Below, piece after piece: positions 23,402-30,224 of a stretch of DNA of 34,139 bases; the stretch's first letter is position 1; the number at the start of each line of letters is the position of its first letter. This stretch comes from Minisyncoccota bacterium (GTDB lineage: Bacteria; Patescibacteriota; Minisyncoccia; Phycocordibacterales; UBA2100): positions 1-34,139 of the forward strand of contig JAGOVW010000007.1 of NCBI GenBank assembly GCA_018060545.1, written 5' to 3'. The notes under the pieces were generated by a model, which was not told the DNA's origin, searched no databases, and saw only the letters and a program-made list of their open reading frames with translations. Made by a program: the position numbers and the translations under genes.

Positions 23402-25069
23402 CTACATCTTTTCAGGAGCTTGAATACCCAGAAGCGCGAGTCCATTTTGTAGAGTGAACTTCACTGCTTCTACCAGCGCAATGCGCGCAGGCGCCGCCTC
23501 ACTTCCATCCAAGAATTGTTCGCGTGCGTACCAAGAGTTGAACGCCCCTGCAATCTGCATGAGGTATGTCGCAACATGGTGTGCTGCGCGTTCTTCAGCA
23601 GCGCGTTCTGCTACCTGCGGAAAGCGCACGAGCATGCGTACGATCTCTTGCGGAACTTGTGTAGCATCTGCTTTTCCTTTTACCCCTGCCTCTTTCGCCT
23701 TTTCGAGTATTGATGCACAGCGAGCGTGCGCGTACTGCAAGTACGGACCAGAATCTCCTTCCAATGACAGTGCGCGTTCTTCTTCAAACACGGCGTCCTT
23801 TCCCGCCGCTTGGCGCAGGATTTGAAATTTGATTGCAGCCACCGCTACCTGTTGGGCCAAGAGATCCGCATCTTCCGCTCGGCTCTGCTTTGCGCGTTCG
23901 CGCGCCTTATCAACGAGTGCAATCAGGAGAGACTCCCCCGTTACCACCTCCCCGGTGCGCGATGACATTTTGCCGGTAGGAAGGAGCATCATGCCGTGAC
24001 TAATATGTGAGAGCTTCGCGGCGAGCGTGGGATTGATAACTTCAAGTGCTTTTTTAATGATGAGAAACACGCCCTTCTGCTCGACTGCTGTAGTGATAAT
24101 AAATTCATCACATTCGGGATACTCTTGAGCCTTGAGCGTCTCAAGACCAAGCTCTTTTGCTTCGTACGTAGGCAATCCTTTGGACGTAAGGAACACACGA
24201 GTATGAAGACCATACTCTTCGCCTTTAAACACACGTGCGCCTTCGGAGAGCGGAAACACGTCAGGATGTGCCTCTACTACTTTTTGCCCTATACCTGCTG
24301 TTTCACTTTCGAAATAGAAACGGTCGAATGATGAGCCGAGCACTGAGTACAATTCGTCGAATCTTTTCAGGCTGGCTTCGCGCCCTGCATCATACAGCTC
24401 GTTCACCACGCCATCTGTTTTTTCATACACCTTCACATTAAGGGCATCGATTTCCGCTTTTACGCGCTCGTCCTTTTCATAGAGCTGCGCGCCATGCGCA
24501 TATGCTTTACCAATTGCCTCTACATCTTTCGGATCGGTAGCGAGTGCCTGCATCCCCCAAATTGCCTTAGCAATGTGAAGCCCGACATCTCCTTGATAGT
24601 TGGCGCGCACCACTCGCGCCTGCTGGTTTTCCAAAAGACGGACGAGCGATTCACCAATGGTGTTGCTCATGAGATGCCCGATGTGAAATGGTTTAAATGG
24701 ATTTGGCTGGCTATGCTCCACCATGATCGTGGTGCCCTGCAAATCCTCACCCTCGCCCCATTGCCCACCTTTTGTGTGGGCTTCGTGGACCACAGACGTA
24801 AGCACATCAGCCGTGTAGGTAAAGTTAATGAACCCAGGGCCGGCAATCGATACAAGCTCAATACCAGGGATCTGTGGCAGATTCCCGACAATCTTCTCTG
24901 CGAGGACGCGGGGTGCATCCCCTGTTTCCTTTGCGTGGACTAACGCGAGGTTGGTAGTGAGGTCGCCATGGGCTAAATCAGAGGGGAAATCAAAAACTAC
25001 CCGCGGCGTAGCAACGCCCGCTTTGACGGCAGCATCCGTGAGCGCTTCGAGTAGTGCTTCTGTATCCAT
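23402..25069 (-). CDS. argS: Arginyl-tRNA synthetase
   Basis: Class I synthetase charging tRNA-Arg, 555 residues. It contains the N-terminal Add1-type domain (about 1-90), EHSQPNPFKPFHIGHLMSN with a canonical HIGH, the ArgRS-typical NYQGDVGLHIAKAIWGM, GKMSSRTGEVV in place of KMSKS, and a DALR-type C-terminal anticodon-binding domain (GPYLQYAHAR onwards). TAGAAT ends six bases before the ATG at 25069. The lipoprotein gene follows. Confidence 0.96.
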   Translation of the reverse strand: MDTEALLEALTDAAVKAGVATPRVVFDFPSDLAHGDLTTNLALVHAKETGDAPRVLAEKIVGNLPQIPGIELVSIAGPGFINFTYTADVLTSVVHEAHTKGGQWGEGEDLQGTTIMVEHSQPNPFKPFHIGHLMSNTIGESLVRLLENQQARVVRANYQGDVGLHIAKAIWGMQALATDPKDVEAIGKAYAHGAQLYEKDERVKAEIDALNVKVYEKTDGVVNELYDAGREASLKRFDELYSVLGSSFDRFYFESETAGIGQKVVEAHPDVFPLSEGARVFKGEEYGLHTRVFLTSKGLPTYEAKELGLETLKAQEYPECDEFIITTAVEQKGVFLIIKKALEVINPTLAAKLSHISHGMMLLPTGKMSSRTGEVVTGESLLIALVDKARERAKQSRAEDADLLAQQVAVAAIKFQILRQAAGKDAVFEEERALSLEGDSGPYLQYAHARCASILEKAKEAGVKGKADATQVPQEIVRMLVRFPQVAERAAEERAAHHVATYLMQIAGAFNSWYAREQFLDGSEAAPARIALVEAVKFTLQNGLALLGIQAPEKM

Positions 25070-25134: not shown

Positions 25135-25749
25135 TCAATGCGCTTCGATAAAGGCGACTACCTCGGCAAACACGTGGTCTTGCGTTTTGGTGGCATCAAC
25201 TACCGCCTGACGCTGCGTGGTGCGCGGATCATGCACGAATTCCAGGAACCCTGCCCGCACGCGACGATGGAAATCCATCTCTGCCAAATCGAAGTGGGTT
25301 ATCTCTCCTCCACGCGACTTTGCCCGAGCAACGCCGATTTCAGGCGGTACATCAAGTACGATGTACATGTCGGGGGCACAGTCCTTCAGGTAGTGCGCCC
25401 GAACGGCCCAGAACAAATCTGCCAACTGAGATTGCTTCTGTCCTCGAATCTGGTACGCCCATGTCGAGGAATCGAAACGATCTGTAAATACCATCAGGCC
25501 TTGCTTGCGAGCCGGCATGATGATTTCGCGCATGTGGTCACGCCGGGCTGCCCAAAACGCAGCAAACATGGTCTCGGCATCGTATGCTGCCGCATCAGGC
25601 CTCAGGATAAGCCCGCGCAGCTCCTCCCCCAGACGTGAACCTCCTGGTTCACGCGTGCGGATACTCTTCGGGAAATGTGCGTGGAGCCGATGCGAAAGCG
25701 TCGTCGTGCCACTGCCTTCGCCACCGTCTACTACTGCAAACACACTCAT
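25135..25749 (-). CDS. tmk: Thymidylate kinase-like protein with altered Walker A
   Basis: dTMP kinase family, dTMP + ATP to dTDP. The start ATG 25749 is set by AGGAGG (25758-25763) 8 bases upstream, not by the longer frame. In 204 residues it has the P-loop region VVDGGEGSGTTTLSHRL, the dTMP-site signature TREPGGSRLGEELRGLIL, TDRFDSSTWAYQ and the LID-like RAKSRGG. The P-loop is odd: at position 15 the invariant Walker A lysine is threonine (G-T-T instead of G-K-T/S), one base from a lysine codon. Either activity is changed, a base error exists in the assembly, or it acts on another substrate. It is the first gene of the dTMP-supply module. Confidence 0.85.
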   Translation of the reverse strand: MSVFAVVDGGEGSGTTTLSHRLHAHFPKSIRTREPGGSRLGEELRGLILRPDAAAYDAETMFAAFWAARRDHMREIIMPARKQGLMVFTDRFDSSTWAYQIRGQKQSQLADLFWAVRAHYLKDCAPDMYIVLDVPPEIGVARAKSRGGEITHFDLAEMDFHRRVRAGFLEFVHDPRTTQRQAVVDATKTQDHVFAEVVAFIEAH

Positions 25750-25824
25750 GGATATGTCCTCCTTGCTGTCTCCCGCGAGTGTAACGACTAAGAGCACAAC
25801 TGCAAGGAATATGGTCGAGACGAC

Positions 25825-26578: not shown

Positions 26579-27004
26579 TCACACCCCAGTACTGCCGAAA
26601 CCACCTGTGCTTCGGGCGCCCAGAGGTAGCTCAGCCACCTCAACGAACGAACACAGTTCGACCCGCTGGATGAGAACCTGGGCAACTCGATCACCTGGCG
26701 CAATAGTGAAAGGCACCTGCTCCGTATTAAGCAGGACCACCTTCCACTCACCGCGATACGAGGCGTCTATGACTCCGGCCAGAACGGAAATACCGTGACG
26801 GTGTGCAAGCCCACTGCGGCCCCATACCAGCCCGGCATACCCACGCGGCAATGCAACAGCAATCCCCGTACCGACGACAGCTCTCCCTTGTGGTGGGATA
26901 CTCTGCGCTACATACGCGAACAGATCGAGTCCTGCGTCCATTTCGTGCGACCGCACCGGTATTCTCGCCTCAGGAACCAGCTTTACCACTTCTACATTCT
27001 TCAT
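26579..27004 (-). CDS. dut: Deoxyuridine triphosphate nucleotidohydrolase
   Basis: Trimeric dUTPase: dUTP to dUMP and pyrophosphate, keeping uracil out of DNA and supplying dUMP to ThyA. All five motifs are present in 141 residues: HEMDAGLDLFA, GRSGLA, GVIDASYRGEW, GDRVAQVLIQR, and the C-terminal ARSTGGFGSTG. AGGAGG (27012-27017) lies seven bases before the ATG, and the ATG overlaps the stop of the dCMP deaminase gene (ATGA), so the two are translationally coupled. Confidence 0.96.
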   Translation of the reverse strand: MKNVEVVKLVPEARIPVRSHEMDAGLDLFAYVAQSIPPQGRAVVGTGIAVALPRGYAGLVWGRSGLAHRHGISVLAGVIDASYRGEWKVVLLNTEQVPFTIAPGDRVAQVLIQRVELCSFVEVAELPLGARSTGGFGSTGV

Positions 27005-27621
27005 TGAGCACCCTCCTCTACGCTCTGTTTTTGTCGTGCCCCGATGGGATGGTAGTCGTTTCGTTCAATCCATTCATCGAGTAGCGGGCTTCCGTACTTT
27101 TCCACCCGAACACCCAAACGACGCAGGTAATTAGTCGCATGTTCTTCACGACCGTATTCCCACAGATAGTGAACGAACTTGATACCTTTGTTCACTATCT
27201 GCTTCGCACAGGTGTTGCATGGGTGAAGCGTTACCATCATCTGCAAGTTCTGCAGACTCTGAGTGCCCGCTGAAAGATTCCCGATCGCGTTCAGTTCGGC
27301 ATGCGAGCCACGGCAGAGACCCTGACCTTCCATGAGTTTGCCGTCTACCACGCGAGCACAACCGGCCTCCCGAGGGTCTACATCGCCGCGAGCTGCGCCG
27401 TTGTAACCGAGCGACAAGATGATATCGCCGTGAAAGATGATGGCGCCCACTTCGTACCACAGACACGTAGAACGTTTCGACACCACAATTGCTTGCTGTG
27501 CAATTACATCAAGCATGGTGGGTCGTGCATAGCTCATCTTGAGCTTGTCCGGAAACATACGTTTCAAGACTGCAGGATCAGTGCTTTTAACCCACGAAAG
27601 TGACTTACTGTTTTTAGCCAT
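27001..27621 (-). CDS. dCMP/deoxycytidylate deaminase family
   Basis: Zinc deaminase of the ComEB/dCMP deaminase group, converting dCMP to dUMP for ThyA. The start ATG 27621 follows AGGAG (27631-27635) with a 9-base spacer; the upstream in-frame extension runs into the divergent folA promoter and is rejected. The 206 residues carry RSTCLWYEVGAIIF, SLGYNGAARGD, the zinc/catalytic HAE in GSHAELNAIG, and HPCNTCAKQI as PCxxC. The ~30-residue N-terminal extension and C-terminal tail make it a little longer than typical. Coupled to dut by a 4-base overlap; divergent from folA. Confidence 0.92.
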   Translation of the reverse strand: MAKNSKSLSWVKSTDPAVLKRMFPDKLKMSYARPTMLDVIAQQAIVVSKRSTCLWYEVGAIIFHGDIILSLGYNGAARGDVDPREAGCARVVDGKLMEGQGLCRGSHAELNAIGNLSAGTQSLQNLQMMVTLHPCNTCAKQIVNKGIKFVHYLWEYGREEHATNYLRRLGVRVEKYGSPLLDEWIERNDYHPIGARQKQSVEEGAQ

Positions 27622-27746
27622 GTCGGCGCTCTCCTTGCTAAAGTACGACTTGCTACAGCATGCCTGAGAGTGCCGTCTTCCAACAAGGTCAAAACGATTG
27701 TACTCACCTGAGCTCTTAATGCCGCACGCCGCTCCGCTGTGCGAGC

Positions 27747-27775
27747 TTGCCGTTTTTTGCGAAGATGCGTACAGT
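27747..27775 (+). promoter_or_regulatory. Promoter of folA
   Basis: TTGCCG (27747-27752) and TACAGT (27770-27775) are exactly 17 bases apart (4/6 each). Transcription would start near 27782, leaving a short leader that holds AGGAGG at 27788-27793. Confidence 0.5.
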
Positions 27776-27798
27776 GGCCCCAGAAACAGGAGGATCGC

Positions 27799-28293
27799 AT
27801 GCTGAGCATAATTGTCGCCATGAGCGACTGTGGTGTCATCGGAAACAAGGACGCACTCCCGTGGCGCATCCCCAGCGATTTGAAGCGTTTTCGGCAGTAC
27901 ACCCTGGGCAAGTCCGTCGTTATGGGCAGACGCACCTACCACTCTCTCCCAGGCCCTTTGGTAGGGCGCCACGTTATCGTTGTGGGAAAGACTGGAGGAA
28001 TCAACTCTGCCGACGTCACGTTCGTTCGTTCACCCGAAGAGGCACTCACCGTACAACACCGCGACACAGAACTCATGATCGCTGGCGGATCGGCTATATT
28101 CGCGTGGTTTTTTGAGCACATGGCAATTGACCGCATGTATGTGACGCGGGTCTTTGCTGACATCCGAGGCGACGCTCACTTCCCTGCCATCGCGTGGGAT
28201 GCATGGCATCGTGAACACCGATCAGACATCTCGCAATGCGCAGGTGATGATCATCCTACTCAATTTGAAGTGTGGCGACGCAGTGCGTCGTAA
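27799..28293 (+). CDS. folA: Dihydrofolate reductase
   Basis: NADPH-dependent reduction of dihydrofolate, which ThyA produces. The start ATG 27799 has AGGAGG five bases upstream; an in-frame upstream start at 27739 has none. The 164 residues show SDCGVIGNKDALPWRIPSDLKRF (given here as a motif region at about 9-31) with the catalytic Asp in PSDL, then GKSVVMGRRTYHSL, GRHVIVV and MIAGGSAIF. This is the chromosomal-type single-domain DHFR. It converges with the aGPT-Pplase2-like gene across a hairpin (28297-28323). Confidence 0.95.
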   Translation: MLSIIVAMSDCGVIGNKDALPWRIPSDLKRFRQYTLGKSVVMGRRTYHSLPGPLVGRHVIVVGKTGGINSADVTFVRSPEEALTVQHRDTELMIAGGSAIFAWFFEHMAIDRMYVTRVFADIRGDAHFPAIAWDAWHREHRSDISQCAGDDHPTQFEVWRRSAS

Positions 28294-28327: not shown

Positions 28328-29242
28328 TTATCGATATAGTCTTTTCCGCCCCTTCCCTAACTTAAGGTTGGTGTACTTTCGAAACTCGCATCCAATACCT
28401 TCCCAGTTCTCTGCGGAGAGTCTCACCGGCACGTCCTCGTACGTAAGGCCATGCGGCACAGCCACTTTCGCGAGACGGGTCACTAGCAGTGCCGGATCCT
28501 CATGCGCATCAATGCGCCGCAGTGTTGGCAATGAACCAGGACCAATGGGAAACCGTGCAAACAAATCTACCCGCTCGGGAAACTGGTATGCCACATCTAT
28601 CAACACTTCCGTCCACAAGAAGGTCAGGTTGATGCCGAAAAGCGGCAGCACGCGTACCACCCCATCGTGCACACTCACGCGTTCCCACGACTCAATCTCT
28701 TGCGCAATACGATACATCTTTCGTGGCAGATAGTACGCGAGGAATGCTTCTCGTGTCGGAGTGTCGCTCTTGAGTATGGTACTCACCGGAAACACGTACG
28801 GCGTACCGAAACGCGGACGACCCGTAGCCATGAGTCGCTTATAGAAGTCTTTGTTTTCTGCCTCATCAAAGGAAAGCAGGCCAACCGTGTGCACCGTTTC
28901 TGTGCGCGCGACAAGTCGGCAGTAGAACATGTTCAAAAGCCACAGTGGAAAATGGCCACGCATGGGCTGCAATGTCTGGTGAAAAAAGATGGTTTGTCGG
29001 TCGAGTTCTCGAAAAATGTTACAGAAACGGTACGTGGTAAGTATAGGGTCTTCAGAATATGGCGGTACGTCTCCACGCGATTTCTTTGCCCACACGCTCA
29101 TGCGCTCTGAAATAAAATAGGTAAGCCCCTGCCACAGCGCCATATCAGCACACACCTCGTGTGGAGACAGCGTCTGCGCCCCGATATCCAGGTGCTGTGG
29201 CCAGTGGCGGTAGAGCTTCTTTACATCTATCGGTAGTTCCAT
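28328..29242 (-). CDS. Protein resembling 5-hmdU DNA kinase helical domain (aGPT-Pplase2-like)
   Basis: Protein of 304 residues, mostly helical. The stretch DPILTTYRFCNIFRELDRQ, at about residues 64-82, matches my recollection of the HMUDK_hel / alpha-glutamyl-putrescinyl-thymine pyrophosphorylase clade 2 family, which has a DP-(I/V)-L-x-x-YRFCN-x-x-RE-x-DR core. No P-loop is visible, so it would be the helical domain alone. Phage relatives act on 5-hydroxymethyl-deoxyuridine in DNA; the bacterial members are uncharacterised. I start it at ATG 29242; a GTG at 29260 would overlap the thyA terminator's T-tract. No Shine-Dalgarno is seen. It lies immediately downstream of thyA, between folA and thyA. 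The family call needs a profile search. Confidence 0.5.
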   Translation of the reverse strand: MELPIDVKKLYRHWPQHLDIGAQTLSPHEVCADMALWQGLTYFISERMSVWAKKSRGDVPPYSEDPILTTYRFCNIFRELDRQTIFFHQTLQPMRGHFPLWLLNMFYCRLVARTETVHTVGLLSFDEAENKDFYKRLMATGRPRFGTPYVFPVSTILKSDTPTREAFLAYYLPRKMYRIAQEIESWERVSVHDGVVRVLPLFGINLTFLWTEVLIDVAYQFPERVDLFARFPIGPGSLPTLRRIDAHEDPALLVTRLAKVAVPHGLTYEDVPVRLSAENWEGIGCEFRKYTNLKLGKGRKRLYR

Positions 29243-29260
29243 GCAGAAATTTTTTCTCAC

Positions 29261-29299: not shown

Positions 29300-30133
29300 T
29301 CACTTCGCAATCAACGCTTTGATTGCGGGATGCGGATCGTACCCTTCCAGCGTGAAGTGCTCGAAGCGAAATGCGTCGATATGCTTCACCTCCGGATTGA
29401 TGTGCATCATCGGAAGCGACAATGGTTCACGAGACAACTGGAGATCAACCTGATCAAGGTGGTTGAGGTACAAGTGCGTGTCGCCACCCGTCCAGATGAA
29501 TTCTCCGAGCTTCAAGTCACACACCTGAGCAACCATCATAGTCAAGAGCGCATAGCTCGCGATATTGAACGGTACACCCAGGAACACATCGGCGGACCGC
29601 TGGTAGAGCTGGCAGCTGAGCTTCCCGTCGGCAACATAGAACTGAAACAGGCAGTGGCAGGTGGCAAGCGCCATCTTCCCCTGTGCTGCATTTACTTCAG
29701 GTGCGAGCGACTCGTTCGGCATATCTGCCGGATTCCATGCCGTAATGATATGCCGGCGCGAATGTGGCTTACTCCTGATTTGTGCAATCACTTCTGCGAT
29801 CTGATCAATGGTGCGCTGGTCGGGTGTTGACCATGCACGCCACTGCTTGCCGTACACTGGCCCCAAATCACCCTCAGGCGTAGCCCATTCATCCCAAATC
29901 GAGACACCATGCTGTTTCAGATAGCCGATGTTGGTGTCCCCTTTTAGAAACCACAGAAGCTCGTGAATGACCCCTTTCAGAAATACGCGCTTTGTGGTGA
30001 GGAGCGGAAAACCTTCGGCCAAATCAAACCGCATTTGGTAGCCAAACACACTGATTGTGCCGACGCCTGTTCTGTCTTCTTTCCGCACGCCCTTTTCGCG
30101 GATGTGCCGCAACAATTCGAGATATTGCTTCAC
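29300..30133 (-). CDS. thyA: Thymidylate synthase ThyA
   Basis: Methylates dUMP to dTMP using methylene-tetrahydrofolate, producing dihydrofolate for FolA. A GTG start at 30133 is chosen because GGAG (30141-30144) precedes it by seven bases and the protein then begins at the normal [14 protein letters not shown]. The 277 residues carry [29 protein letters not shown], the catalytic cysteine in [37 protein letters not shown] and GDTHLYLNH. The asparagine in PFNIASY that selects dUMP is kept, so this is a true thymidylate synthase and not a dCMP hydroxymethylase. The proline usual before the catalytic cysteine is threonine here. Confidence 0.96.
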
Positions 30134-30194
30134 GATGTTTCTCCATGCCAAAGAACGCCAAACTTCAGCATGCCATAGACAGCACAACCACGCA

Positions 30195-30224
30195 CCCATA
30201 TCTACCCTGTGCACATTGAGTCAA
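30195..30224 (-). promoter_or_regulatory. Probable thyA promoter
   Basis: On the minus strand, TTGACT (30219-30224) and TATGGG (30195-30200) with an 18-base spacer. The -10 is weak. Its -35 sits four bases from the -35 of the divergent promoter. Confidence 0.35.

Follow-up and report, generated by a model that had tools for sequence, protein, structure and literature searches.

The window, by which we mean the entire stretch of 34,139 nucleotides analysed, belongs to a draft genome (G000) of 1.08 Mb in 71 contigs that was 93% complete. On the minus strand it contains a thymidylate kinase (TMK) gene, tmk, in the same window as the complete thyA, folA, dut and dCMP deaminase set of this genome (Table 1). 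As these four genes are present, the cell should make dTMP and need a dTMP kinase, unless dTTP is imported. A neighbour of tmk looks, from its sequence, like an arginyl-tRNA synthetase gene, and a gene divergent from tmk encodes a fusion of a winged-helix and a Nudix domain, which may act as a nucleotide-sensing regulator or as a hydrolase. The dCMP deaminase/folA pair is separated from thyA by a gene for a protein with a 5-hmdU DNA kinase helical domain (PF18723), which is related to the uncharacterised phage family phrog_2396. A link to hypermodified DNA through this protein was considered and discarded, because the domain is not conserved together with the threonine trait described below.

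Table 1. Features of the window around tmk
Feature	Position	Strand	Evidence
Putative arginyl-tRNA synthetase, neighbour of tmk	23402..25069		appearance of the sequence
tmk ORF, 204-aa dTMP kinase with Thr-type P-loop	25135..25749	-	TIGR00041 116 bits (curated cutoff 83.25); PF02223 101 bits (cutoff 27)
LID basic residues Arg142, Lys144, Arg146	25312..25326	-	profile alignment to 4tmk; conservation
DRFD motif, residues 90-93, conserved throughout the relatives	25471..25482	-	invariant columns, alignment A2
P-loop GGEGSGTTT, residues 9-17	25699..25725	-	translation; alignment to the TMK motif GxxGxGKT
Thr15 codon ACG at the Walker A lysine position	25705..25707	-	direct reading; Thr conserved in 7 genomes
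Ribosome-binding site AGGAGG, perfect, 8 nt before ATG	25758..25763	-	direct reading
Winged-helix/Nudix fusion, 225 aa	25864..26541	+	
dUTPase (dut), supplies dUMP	26579..27004	-	PF00692 106.6 bits; TIGR00576 146 bits
dCMP deaminase-like ORF, upstream start uncertain	27001..27972	-	PF00383 51.6 bits; ComEB-like 77 bits
Dihydrofolate reductase (folA)	27739..28293	+	PF00186 146 bits
5-hmdU DNA kinase helical domain protein	28328..29260	-	PF18723 57.5 bits
Thymidylate synthase (thyA), source of the substrate dTMP	29300..30214	-	PF00303 401 bits; TIGR03284 417 bits

By direct reading, the coding span of tmk covers positions 25138-25749 with the ATG at 25747-25749, and the translation starts MSVFAVVDGGEGSGTTTLSHRL... 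The product scored above the cutoffs of both thymidylate kinase profiles, which places it in the family. It did not match the Walker A pattern GxxxxGK[ST], as it reads GGEGSGTT with Thr for Lys; this lysine is a general P-loop feature, and the family assignment comes from profile and fold. The dTMP-binding motifs REPGG, AAR and DRFD(S) were present in the alignments, and R33, R45, R69, DRFDSS, Q100 and R142 were retained in the protein and its relatives. Two traits of type II enzymes were also found: E11-G12 in the P-loop, where Gly rather than Arg follows the acidic residue, and a LID arginine, Arg146, aligned with Arg153 of E. coli. The protein thus has its fold, the REPGG, AAR and DRFD(S/T) motifs, the lack of the type I arginine and the Arg153 equivalent in common with type II bacterial TMKs (E. 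coli 4tmk, P. aeruginosa 4edh, TIGR00041), but those enzymes have the Walker A lysine and LID Arg158 where it has Thr and His. We therefore regard it as a member of the TMK family whose probable function is that of a dTMP kinase. The first-pass annotation had described a threonine in place of an otherwise invariant lysine within an intact family signature. Its coordinates and residue numbering proved correct, the other core residues were conserved, and lysine was found in all Lys-type homologues and in five aligned PDB chains.

The tmk gene was the sole dTMP kinase candidate. When a second canonical TMK was sought elsewhere in G000, one adenylate kinase was the only other PF02223 match. Five of the six other genomes with a threonine form had the Thr gene only, plus at most adenylate-kinase-like matches, and the sixth (G001) had an additional P-loop protein without TMK motifs; all genomes are drafts, and some gene absences may be gaps.

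Thr15-type TMKs occurred in seven genomes from four genera of one Patescibacteria/Kaiserbacteria family and were 45-49% identical. Besides G000, these were G001, G005, G008, G016, G019 and G021, and the genes matched those in public MAGs of different projects, classed as Kaiserbacteria or simply as Patescibacteria (L047, L048, L049, L053, L057 and L064). A residue that recurs in six further genomes is no chance finding. A first scan of the genome contigs with a single protein as query had given no match. The first-pass annotation had raised the possibility of a base error, ACG being one base away from AAG. Because independent MAGs carry Thr through either ACG or ACC, and the sequence nearby differs between them, an assembly or base-calling error at this single position has a practically negligible probability. 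Recoding was likewise dismissed, since the Thr codons vary, the guanylate kinase (GMK) of G000 has Glu at this position, and adk, cmk, miaA, RecA and FtsK of G000 keep lysine. A degenerate DNA pattern (G-E/D-G-S/T-G-T-T) run over 380 genomes of the phylum matched no TMK outside the family, so that in this sample the trait is confined to one family; elsewhere in the phylum, the ORFs that matched GSGTT were unrelated. A phage origin or phage relatives were rejected, as no relative with a T-type alignment was found among viral contigs.

In a tree of 50 sequences the Thr forms fell into one group, but this group also encloses a Lys clade of four members (L050, L051, L054 and L056), and the distribution requires two changes. 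It is best explained, in the simplest reading of the tree, by one change from Lys to Thr and one return to Lys. After removal of the P-loop columns support was weaker and the basal order less certain, and in the tree without these columns a single clade of all Thr forms was not quite rejected (AU p = 0.0625). Lysine in close relatives had been named at the outset as an observation that would speak against a genuine substitution. The sister clade does have lysine, but its position within the Thr group is best read as a reversion.

The sister Lys forms are about 45-50% identical to the Thr forms. Nonsynonymous divergence was 0.13-0.20 per site, while synonymous sites were at or near saturation in both the Thr and the Lys groups; where it could be computed, dN/dS was about 0.06. 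Judged from these sequence comparisons, tmk is under strongly purifying selection, and the low nonsynonymous change argues against relaxed selection. Position 146 was Arg in all seven Thr forms, in all four sister Lys forms and in L034, L065 and L063, and Gln or Asn in eight outer Lys forms. Given this distribution, Arg146 probably predates the loss of the lysine.

The AlphaFold model of the protein had a mean pLDDT of 95.3, with about 96-97 in the P-loop blocks and 87 in the LID block (141-150). Its best PDB match was P. aeruginosa TMK 4edh (TM 0.88), and the 50 best PDB matches listed were all TMKs; by this prediction the protein has an ordinary TMK fold. In the profile alignment with 4tmk, in which residues were numbered by hand count, Arg142 corresponded to Arg149, Lys144 to Arg151 and Arg146 to Arg153, and His152 took the place of E. 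coli LID Arg158. A comparison of alignment columns revealed no compensating new lysine in the Thr forms. The catalytic arginine of type II TMKs is a LID residue, which in the E. coli enzyme is Arg153 (PMC3169407). We propose that ATP would be held in the P-loop by backbone amides, the dipole of helix alpha-1 and Mg2+ on Thr16, and that the charge which the lysine presents to the beta- and gamma-phosphates would be replaced by the LID arginines, chiefly Arg146. Thr15 would contribute one hydrogen bond at most. The alignment suggests such compensation by Arg146, although the residue is not exclusive to Thr forms, which counts against this reading, as do His152 and the absence of an extra lysine.

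A precedent comes from mycobacterial CoaE, a LID-bearing P-loop kinase, in which the exchange of Lys14 for Ala cost only 19% of kcat (about 81% was kept) and LID Arg140 was proposed as the compensating residue (PMC3019153); that protein is a laboratory mutant of a different enzyme and carries Ala, not Thr. Among profiles of NMP kinases, that of the archaeal-type (d)CMP kinase (TIGR02173) accepted Thr with hardly any loss relative to Lys (62.6 against 63.5 bits), while Thr cost about 4-5 bits in TIGR00017 and adk. TIGR00041 gave 116.0 bits for Thr, 115.8 for Ala and 121.3 for Lys at the Walker A position. In all these comparisons scoring probes were typed in rather than natural sequences used, and the likeness to the (d)CMP kinase, which belongs to another family with another substrate, is one of profile. 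As Thr scored about like Ala in TIGR00041 and 5 bits under Lys, it is no known alternative in TMKs.

Lysine-free NMP kinases of a second kind were found in the same genomes. The sole guanylate kinase found in G000 (contig C50, 12922-13467, minus strand; L111) reads AGPTASGEST, with Glu for the Walker A lysine; it reached 136 bits against TIGR03263, under the curated 160, so that its substrate assignment is putative. Such Glu-type GMKs (L101-L122) are conserved in the lineage like the Thr TMK, but concern a different enzyme, a change from Lys to Glu and two separate origins. Type A (GEST/GETT) was present in seven genomes, all of the Thr-TMK family, and type B (GEDS/GEDT) in six genomes of the family that were sampled for the tree and in G192 (L172) from another family. 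According to the tree, the GMKs of the family acquired Glu in two separate clades. Nearly all other sampled GMKs of the phylum had Lys and a few had Arg at this position. As adk and cmk of these genomes retain the lysine, its loss in TMK and GMK is no general P-loop or genetic-code effect. Tandem GMK pairs were observed in six relatives (L101/L117, L103/L122, L106/L119, L107/L118, L109/L121 and L110/L120), the first gene being of Glu type (GEST/GETT) and the second of Lys or Glu (GEDS) type; in some genomes they lie directly before adk.

We consider it fairly probable that the gene encodes a real, functional type II dTMP kinase in which Lys was replaced by Thr once and regained later in one sub-lineage. 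The dTMP kinase activity of the Thr form we infer from sequence. The first-pass annotation had allowed for lost or changed phosphate binding. A change is likely, but loss is not favoured, because G000 makes dTMP and has no other candidate for a dTMP kinase, and because the protein retains its other catalytic residues and evolves under purifying selection. The same observations bear on the view that the gene is a pseudokinase or decaying, with host-dependent cells importing dNTPs and the protein drifting or kept for another role. Many P-loop enzymes require the Walker A lysine for activity, and the tandem GMK-like genes, one with Glu, suggest that non-catalytic paralogues can persist. Such a fate is nevertheless improbable here: all other catalytic residues are conserved across about 45-50% identity, selection is strong, a full dTMP-making pathway adjoins tmk, and the likely return to Lys would be hard to derive from a dead enzyme.

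A catalytic protein that now uses a different substrate or phosphate donor (a dNMP other than dTMP, an NTP other than ATP or a donor supplied by the host), with the lysine dropped as part of the shift, also seems improbable, and to the same degree. The substitution is located in the donor site, the PF18723 protein hints at modified pyrimidines, and certain members of the same order have no TMK or no GMK at all; but PF18723 was absent from all 18 relatives tested, including every other Thr genome, the motifs of the dTMP site are the same as in Lys-type relatives, and thyA is by profile an ordinary thymidylate synthase. It is very unlikely that the Thr-TMK depends on or acts with the type A GMK paralogue. 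Type A was indeed found in six of the seven genomes with a Thr-TMK, and all ten Lys-TMK genomes tested lacked it, among them the sister clade that would have reverted to Lys. Yet G008 has a Thr-TMK without type A, in G012 type A occurs with no TMK detected, the two genes lie on separate contigs in G000, and shared ancestry alone may explain the overlap.

Taking the probably functional Thr-type dTMP kinase together with the GMKs, we tentatively suggest, at somewhat below even confidence, that nucleotide kinases of the family lost the Walker A lysine more than once and have stably done without it (Thr once in TMK, Glu in two GMK clades), and that these would be working enzymes holding ATP otherwise, for example by LID arginines or a metal ion near Glu or Thr. 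No report of a TMK or GMK without this lysine was found in open PMC papers. To our knowledge, the lysine is regarded as near-universal and essential in P-loop kinases, and its loss is routinely taken as inactivity. A conserved sole dTMP kinase and lysine-free GMKs amount to a natural experiment, for which the sister Lys forms can serve as controls, and the Thr-type TMK makes a basic rule on ATP-binding enzymes testable. If working kinases did lose the lysine repeatedly, the mechanism of P-loop kinases would not depend on it, and other elements could take over its role. Neither annotations nor metabolic models should list such genes as pseudokinases.

Two minor observations concern other members of the collection. 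A Lys-type tmk in G031 (C3, 219789-220356; L029 and L031) is split across two frames by a frameshift that is either real or due to assembly. Arg-type guanylate kinase-like genes occur elsewhere in the phylum (L166, L174 and L178 in G124, G237 and G230).
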